Positions 22,790-23,733 of a DNA stretch of 64,000 nt are shown one piece after another. The stretch is taken from positions 2,914,001 through 2,978,000 of the forward strand of contig NZ_CP049143.1 of the NCBI RefSeq assembly GCF_011044495.1, read 5' to 3'. The number at the start of each line of letters is the position of its first letter. Position 1 is the first letter of the stretch. Position numbers and translations under genes: made by a program. This DNA comes from Roseimicrobium sp. ORNL1 (GTDB lineage: Bacteria; Verrucomicrobiota; Verrucomicrobiia; Verrucomicrobiales; Verrucomicrobiaceae). The notes beneath the pieces are model-generated. The model did not search any database. It was not told where the DNA came from and was given only the letters and a program-made list of their open reading frames with translations.

Positions 22790-23161
22790 AACGTAGCTCG
22801 CGAGTCCCTTCGCGTGCTTTGTGCCAGCCCCGTCTGAGGGAATGGCCGCAAAAGAACGCAAAGATCGCAAAAGCAGTTCAGGAAGTCGGGTCTCCTGACC
22901 GGACAGCGTCTGGCGGGTTTTCCTACCCGCCATTGTGGTGCGATGCATGGTGTGTTGATAGAAGTCTGCACCTGAGCCAACCCTCAAGGATTGGGGGCAT
23001 TCCAGCCTTCATTTTCTCAGCCGCAAAAAGACGCAAAAAACTCAAAAAGGTCGTGATTGCGGCCCTGCGAAGTGCCTCCGAAATGACGCCCGCCTACTGA
23101 GTCAGCTTCGCCTACAAAACACCGCAGGCTAGGCAGTCCAATTTTGCGTCTTTTTGCGGCT
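22790..23161. repeat. Composite inverted-repeat element B
   Basis: In order: an ACGTAGCTCGCGAGTCCCTT segment (22791-22810) shared with 47.76 and 63.84 kb; a CGCAAAAG-rich arm (22852-22876); a double hairpin (22885-22931) that is the reverse of 16114-16160; a TTGGGGGCATTCCAG copy (22991-23005); and a perfect 20-bp inverted pair AGCCGCAAAAAGACGCAAAA (23019-23038) and its complement (23142-23161). Positions 22789-23205 have no gene. It lies between convergent fabH and gdx. Confidence 0.8.
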
Positions 23162-23205: not shown

Positions 23206-23520
23206 CTACTCCACCACTTTCAGCCCGATCACGCCTGCCAGGATGAAGCCGATGCACACCATGCGGCTCACCGTGAGAGGCTCTCCCAAAAAGAAGATCC
23301 CGCACACAATGGTGCCCGCGGCACCGAGCCCGGTCCACACGGCATAAGCGGTGCCAATGGGCAATGACTTCGCGGCCCACCCCAGCAGCACCACGCTGGC
23401 TACCAGCGCCACACCCACGCCGACCGAAGGCCATAGACGGGTGAAGCCCTCAGTAAACTTCAGGCCCACGGCCCACCCGATTTCAAACAACGCGGCAACG
23501 ATCAAGATAATCCAAGGCAT
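23206..23520 (-). CDS. gdx: Guanidinium exporter Gdx (SMR family, SugE type)
   Basis: A 104-residue, four-helix small multidrug resistance protein. The N-terminus MPWIILIVAALFEIGWAVGL, with the essential Glu13, and the LPIGTAYAVWTGLGAAGT segment are close to the Gdx (formerly SugE) subtype, which exports guanidinium by proton antiport as an antiparallel dimer. The start is the ATG at 23520; a longer frame would run into the riboswitch. The two-hairpin guanidine-II riboswitch just upstream (23544-23591) independently supports the guanidinium assignment. It follows an amine oxidase gene on the same strand. Confidence 0.93.
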   Translation of the reverse strand: MPWIILIVAALFEIGWAVGLKFTEGFTRLWPSVGVGVALVASVVLLGWAAKSLPIGTAYAVWTGLGAAGTIVCGIFFLGEPLTVSRMVCIGFILAGVIGLKVVE

Positions 23521-23543
23521 AACAAAACAGGGGATGAATGTGG

Positions 23544-23591
23544 CAGGGTCGTCCCTAGTCTGCGAAGGAAACATCAAGGCCGTCCTCGATG
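23544..23591 (-). promoter_or_regulatory. Guanidine-II riboswitch (mini-ykkC)
   Basis: On the minus strand two stem-loops have the diagnostic ACGR tetraloops. P1 (23591-23572): CATCGAGG-ACGG-CCTTGATG, an 8-bp stem with one G-T pair. P2 (23557-23544): TAGGG-ACGA-CCCTG, a 4-bp Watson-Crick stem plus a wobble. In both, GG precedes and CC follows the loop, as in the consensus. The linker is 14 nt and P2 ends 23 nt before the gdx ATG. This class binds two guanidinium ions through the paired loops and raises expression of exporters. I see no strong Shine-Dalgarno site between P2 and the ATG, so the mode of control (translation in other members) is inferred. Confidence 0.9.
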
Positions 23592-23733
23592 TCCGTGATA
23601 TTCATCAATTCATTACGAATATCGTTCTCATAAGATGCATCATTTCTGCCCGGGGTCAAGCGATGGCCCCGCGTCCTCCTGGCCAGCAAGTTGAAGTGGC
23701 ACACATTGGCAGAGCTCCGCCGCTCCATCACAT

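Follow-up and report, generated by a model that had tools for sequence, protein, structure and literature searches.

We propose that a guanidine-II riboswitch upstream of the gdx gene of Roseimicrobium sp. ORNL1 regulates a guanidinium exporter at the translational level, in a genome where initiation mostly proceeds without Shine-Dalgarno (SD) pairing, a reading that the modelling makes probable. The aptamer is an ordinary, well-supported guanidine-II and the sensor itself is already known; what appears to be new, judging from predicted leader structures, is its SD-independent expression platform. Across relatives, complementarity between the linker of the aptamer and the start region of the gene goes beyond chance, and in the computed unbound state of this leader the linker is predicted to pair with the initiation region.

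The aptamer and the exporter gene

Positions refer to the window, i.e., the whole stretch of 64,000 nucleotides that was analysed. The features of the leader and its gene are as follows:

23654-23659, minus strand: candidate -35 box TTGACC, read from the sequence, 17 nt 5' of ATCTTA
23631-23636, minus strand: candidate -10 box ATCTTA, which we infer; the 17-nt spacing and ATCTTR also occur in the leader of the same-genus relative (L166, genome G061)
23544-23591, minus strand: guanidine-II aptamer, matched by Rfam RF01068, its end 23 nt 5' of the gdx ATG
23572-23591, minus strand: P1 hairpin with loop ACGG, from the RF01068 alignment and a two-sided change in L166
23558-23571, minus strand: P1-P2 linker of 14 nt, TTTCCTTCGCAGAC, characterised by free-ensemble pairing and shuffling
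23558-23563, minus strand: predicted anti-start strand GCAGAC, the last six linker nucleotides, from free-ensemble pairing
23544-23557, minus strand: P2 hairpin with loop ACGA, from the RF01068 alignment
23521-23543, minus strand: SD-less spacer of 23 nt, from its sequence and anti-SD duplex energy
23518-23520, minus strand: gdx start codon ATG, its U and G predicted to pair with linker A and C in the OFF state and its A free
23206-23520, minus strand: gdx/sugE-type SMR exporter gene (104 aa), from Pfam, NCBIfam and solved relatives

The original prediction of a guanidine-II riboswitch at 23544-23591 on the minus strand, for which a covariance-model scan had been suggested as a check, was borne out by cmscan. 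RF01068 matched over positions 1-48 of its 48 and scored 37.3 bits, above its gathering score of 32 (E = 7.4e-4 in the full 64-kb window), and it was the sole Rfam match in the window to reach any family's gathering score. At E <= 0.001, this is the one RF01068 locus in the 7.96-Mb, one-contig genome. P1 (CATCGAGG-ACGG-CCTTGATG) comprises 8 bp including one G-U, while P2 (TAGGG-ACGA-CCCTG) comprises 5 bp including one U-G, and each loop is closed by two G-C pairs. The loops had been called textbook ACGR loops; both are indeed ACGR, but the ACGG of P1 is unusual, being present in 3 of the 57 parsed leaders among the matches listed (L001, L166 and L044), where the commonest P1/P2 orders were ACGA/ACGA (28) and ACGA/ACGG (26). 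The ACGG loop in P1 might confer a lower guanidine affinity here.

The Gdx-type SMR exporter that had been predicted downstream was likewise confirmed. The gene product matched Pfam Multi_Drug_Res at 93.5 bits, and its best NCBIfam model was SugE at 122.6 bits, slightly below the cut-off of 126. Compared with solved chains, it scored highest against the SMR protein 6wk5/6wk8 (109 bits), which we take to be Gdx-Clo, versus 51 bits for EmrE. By these similarities the product is a Gdx/SugE-type SMR protein, nearer to Gdx/SugE than to EmrE, and guanidinium export is predicted. A TTGAC box is found 38-68 nt 5' of P1 in 10 of the 13 leaders of the window's family, which suggests a dedicated gdx promoter; the candidate TTGACC box of the window was absent from the output of a generic promoter scan. 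Just 3' of the gdx stop codon lies a 20-nt perfect inverted repeat (23019-23038 and 23142-23161, 103 nt apart). The genome has 23 copies of its 19-nt end and 0 of a reversed control pattern, and five times the end is found as facing pairs 105-154 nt apart. Repeated and paired in this way, it resembles a small MITE-like element.

RF01068 matches were present in 12 of the 68 genomes from the window's family, and in 24 of 386, 20 of 384 and 21 of 387 genomes sampled from the order, class and phylum, respectively; these samples overlap one another and each count includes the genome itself. The 44 RF01068 loci comprise 37 that were parsed as gdx leaders, one (L019) that precedes gdx and was missed by the parser, and six without gdx (L024-L028 and L036; 28.7-33.6 bits, with L024 above the cut-off). 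Addition of L164 and L166 gave 39 Verrucomicrobiota leaders in all. A set from outside the phylum consisted of 18 gdx leaders parsed from at least 119 pattern-matched loci; among the matches listed, these were 17 from Proteobacteria and one from Campylobacteraceae.

Covariation of both stems in relatives, a further check put forward with the original prediction, was observed. Across 34 distinct Verrucomicrobiota aptamers, 229 of 272 cells were paired in P1 and 163 of 170 in P2, versus maxima of 205 and 154, respectively, in 500 column shuffles. Two-sided changes occurred at seven of the eight P1 pairs and three of the five P2 pairs, and the two outer P1 pairs were formed in only 20 and 14 of the 34 aptamers. 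The closest comparison is with L166, the leader of G061, which is the one additional member of the genus among the genomes searched and has a gdx that is 87% identical. This leader went unreported by the RF01068 search at E <= 0.001 and was located through its gdx gene instead. The linker, both loops and the first 12 spacer nucleotides are identical to those of the window; P1 shows a two-sided change from A-U to G-C, P2 lacks its outer pair and the spacer has 2 extra nucleotides. The lack of both a model match and compensatory changes would have spoken against the aptamer, and neither applies.

Several other loci deserve mention in their own right. In G446, repeated GGGACGACC hairpins (L025 and L028) imitate the guanidine-II motif; they score 28.7-29.3 bits, below the Rfam cut-off, with no gdx parsed, and are probably an unrelated dispersed repeat. 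In family f1 (L169-L194), a start was found for 29 SMR loci, and the aptamer was present in 10 by eye and 9 by a stricter pattern. Most of the aptamer-less loci encode another SMR type, with 14 beginning M-x-W-L/F-H-L. G021 carries a second SMR match.

The missing Shine-Dalgarno site and the host

The spacer had been described as lacking an evident SD site, which the anti-SD duplex energy of +1.5 kcal/mol upholds: there is no masked SD between P2 and the start. The AGGGA of P2 was considered as a hidden SD within the aptamer and rejected, since at 31 nt 5' of the ATG it is too far away. By anti-SD duplex energy, a clear SD is absent from all 13 leaders of the window's family (12 RF01068 leaders and L166). 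The 12 RF01068 leaders range from +2.4 to -3.3 kcal/mol, the last value being that of L012 and due to a GGAA at the P2 edge, and L166 is at +1.5 kcal/mol. Among the matches listed, 17 of the 18 leaders from outside the phylum lie between -4.5 and -12.1 kcal/mol, the exception being L055 with -3.2. The two classes overlap at their edge (L055 at -3.2 vs L012 at -3.3), and leaders were sorted as SD-less or SD by hand around -3.4, with L037 borderline.

A similar scarcity is seen in sampled stretches of the genome. Both 16S copies carry the CCUCC tail, and 15% of 113 unambiguous ATG starts reached -4.5, compared with 31.6% of 339 internal control sites. In a second count, 15% of 144 starts were SD-like versus 28% of controls. 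Both samples include a stretch overlapping the window; with this stretch left out, the numbers were 21 of 136 starts and 124 of 408 controls. For contrast, 62% of 50 starts from 28 Proteobacterial loci were SD-like, against 18% of controls. Furthermore, SD-like sites were fewer at starts than at controls in 11 of the 12 Verrucomicrobiota genomes sampled that have SD-less leaders, and more frequent at starts in five of the six that have SD leaders. Leader type thus tracks host type (Mann-Whitney P = 0.028, 18 genomes), with depletion holding in only 9 of the 12 genomes at a stricter cut-off of -6. The exceptions at -4.5 were G661, an SD-depleted genome whose leader is SD-like, and G542, which shows the reverse. 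The leader from G661 (L030) carries GGAGAG 5' of the gdx start that is complementary to CUCUC in its linker, and this GGAGAG may be a pairing partner of the linker rather than an SD. The NCBIfam model Verru_Chthon_A matched 12 stretches in the window's genome, 11 of them above the cut-off, and was found in none of 14 control genomes, which points to a host within the Verrucomicrobiota.

Given the depletion of SD sites at the sampled starts of this genome, its intact CCUCC and the equally SD-less leaders of its family, the lack of an SD most likely reflects the host rather than a defect of the leader. In the excerpt available of PMC10783764, SD-scarce bacteria with a conserved CCUCC are described, Akkermansia among them; like such Bacteroidota and Akkermansia, the genome studied here combines an intact anti-SD with few SD sites. 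For Flavobacterium johnsoniae, mRNA structure is reported in a partial text to tune initiation (PMC6847099). As far as these excerpts go, unlike the present case, both works concern initiation in general and not riboswitches (PMC10783764, PMC6847099).

Predicted masking of the start region

In the predicted free ensemble of the window leader without ligand, P1 has a probability of 0.99 and P2 of 0.03. The GGG of the P2 5' arm and the first loop A are predicted to pair with UCCC of the spacer (-14 to -11), the linker GAC with the spacer GUU (-8 to -6), and the linker GCA with UGC at the start; the paired spacer stretches fall within 23526-23534 on the minus strand. Within the start codon, pairing probabilities were 0.79 for U, 0.94 for G and 0.01 for A. 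The best structure has an energy of -21.7 kcal/mol versus -15.4 kcal/mol for P1 and P2 alone. CCCUG, the sequence of the P2 3' arm, recurs exactly in the spacer and allows an alternative register with a probability of about 0.2 in the free ensemble. The 171-nt leader of the window as a whole was no more stable than its shuffles (z = 0.41). When P1 and P2 were forced and the linker left free, the energy needed to open the start region of the window leader dropped from 5.14 to 1.99 kcal/mol; the average over the leaders dropped from 6.6 to 2.6.

A mechanism can be proposed from these folds. Without guanidine, P1 would form and P2 would be dissolved, its 5' arm and the linker being paired with the spacer and AUG. 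The initiation region would be hidden because the P2 5' arm and the loop A hold UCCC while the linker GCAGAC holds GUU and UGC. Guanidinium bound at both ACGR loops would allow P2 to form and kiss P1; the linker and P2 arm would then be released, leaving the U-rich, SD-less start open to the ribosome, and more exporter would be made. From the modelled energies we infer that guanidine would restore P2 and free this start. Ligand binding, the P1-P2 kissing interaction and the ON direction are carried over from the published class, and translation is presumably the controlled step. How the switch might act without an SD had been left open in the original prediction; the modelling indicates that the start region itself is likely hidden instead.

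It is unlikely that the aptamer is a degenerate remnant and that gdx is expressed constitutively from an SD-less start. The rare ACGG loop in P1, the modest score of 37.3 bits, and the loss of the outer P2 pair in L166 together with its failure to be reported by the RF01068 search at E <= 0.001 would all fit such decay. However, the linker and both loops are the same in the two species of the genus, and the one P1 change between them is two-sided. A fold resembling the predicted OFF state of the window is also predicted in L166, in two registers, despite the changes in its P2 arm and spacer.

Control of transcription is rather improbable. Here, the alternative helix UAGGG...CCCUG followed by UUUUGUU would serve as an intrinsic terminator whenever guanidine is absent, and the U-rich tract does lie directly 3' of that helix; its stem is short, however, its loop spans roughly 20 nt and the U run is interrupted. 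A terminator scan, which covered loops of 3-8 nt only, gave none in the leader. At least six T directly follow P2 in 3 of the 39 Verrucomicrobiota leaders (L015, L031 and L037), where P2 could be terminator-like or the run could be a U-rich landing site for the ribosome, whereas the remaining 36 leaders have no five-T run in the spacer. The class is also described as translational in the partial texts of two reports (PMC9561414, PMC12186494). An in-frame ATG at 23574 inside P1, which would make the aptamer partly coding, was rejected as the true start and is a very remote prospect: the frame is open from 23577 into gdx and a GAGGA is well placed eight nt before this ATG, but the longer spacer puts it out of frame in the same-genus relative, and the best solved relative begins at an M-x-W aligned with the downstream ATG.

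Masking of the start region by aptamer and linker was assessed by a swap test, in which aptamer-linker parts were exchanged among leaders and the free energy needed to open positions -10 to +6 was calculated. Near-identical leaders were collapsed prior to the swap and shuffle tests, which reduced the 31 SD-less leaders to 21 representatives. Their opening energy was 6.62 kcal/mol with native parts compared to 4.44 kcal/mol with swapped parts, and none of 20,000 and none of 50,000 permutations was as extreme. Two other target ranges gave P = 0.0001, and a control target in the coding region showed no effect (P = 0.63). When each of the 14 genera contributed a single leader, the values over all 54 picks were 6.32 vs 4.45, with a median P of 0.0003 and a largest P of 0.0043. 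The result also held without the window leader (n = 20, P = 2e-5), in the window's family alone (n = 6, P = 0.0015), in the remaining leaders (n = 15, P = 0.002) and with the borderline L037 added (n = 22, 0 of 50,000 permutations). Shuffling of the linkers of the 21 leaders gave a Fisher P of 1.3e-6, and the window leader itself reached p = 0.005, the floor for 200 shuffles. The effect is uneven, as the shuffled-linker p was at least 0.15 in 11 of the 21 leaders, and in 10 of the 21 under 15% of the start region is taken up by the linker.

Under 16 definitions, simple linker-start duplex energies gave P values of 0.0006-0.066 for the SD-less leaders and none below 0.23 in two SD sets; ensemble opening energies were adopted because they account for competing structure. 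In leaders with an SD, the swap test gave P values of 0.004, 0.10 and 0.12, and the shuffle test 0.07 and 0.54, with 0.29 for eight Verrucomicrobiota leaders. Because the tests are weak in SD leaders, the swap and shuffle method has no strong positive control. Weak specificity in these sets would not be surprising if any SD can be masked by a wide choice of pyrimidine-rich strands.

The two kinds of leader also differ in which strand is predicted to cover the start region. In predicted unbound ensembles, among the matches listed, 23% of the start region is paired with the linker in SD-less leaders versus 2% in the outside set (P = 0.002), and 7% versus 30% with the P2 loop and 3' arm (P = 0.0004). 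By this prediction, SD leaders therefore mask the SD largely by the conserved P2, and SD-less leaders mask the start more by the variable linker. On balance, we lean towards one aptamer serving two platforms that follow host initiation: in one, an SD would be masked largely by P2; in the other, an SD-less start would be masked by a freely evolving linker together with the P1/P2 arms, with linker and start co-varying between lineages.

Comparison with known switches and significance

The arrangement resembles the guanidine-II (mini-ykkC) switch of E. coli sugE, which, in the available portion of its description, likewise has two ACGR hairpins, a linker and a Gdx/SugE exporter downstream (PMC9300104). 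In the model proposed there, P1-P2 kissing induced by guanidinium weakens the pairing of the linker to the SD, and the P1 ACGA loop is the stronger ligand site in E. coli (PMC9300104, in part). Both would be ON switches in which the linker releases the initiation region. Unlike in E. coli, there is no SD to release here, and the predicted target is the SD-less spacer and the AUG; the loop order also differs, with ACGG in P1 and ACGA in P2 where E. coli has the reverse (PMC9300104). For the guanidine-II switch of Pseudomonas aeruginosa, the partial text reports guanidine-dependent ribosome loading in vitro and proposes that a P0 helix masks the SD (PMC9561414). In both cases initiation is proposed to be blocked by a helix outside the aptamer, but the P. 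aeruginosa SD would be held by a P0 made of flanking sequences (PMC9561414), whereas here the region predicted to be held, by the linker and the 5' arm of P2, has no SD. Among the matches listed in a search of open-licence PMC titles and abstract beginnings, no description of a guanidine-II switch in SD-scarce bacteria was found.

A switch of this kind would escape any search that demands an SD after P2. The usual description of translational riboswitches is that they hide a Shine-Dalgarno site. The present set offers one sensor joined to one kind of gene in natural leaders from SD-using as well as SD-scarce bacteria, which makes riboswitch control of initiation without an SD directly testable. 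These leaders show how an expression platform can change while the aptamer stays fixed.
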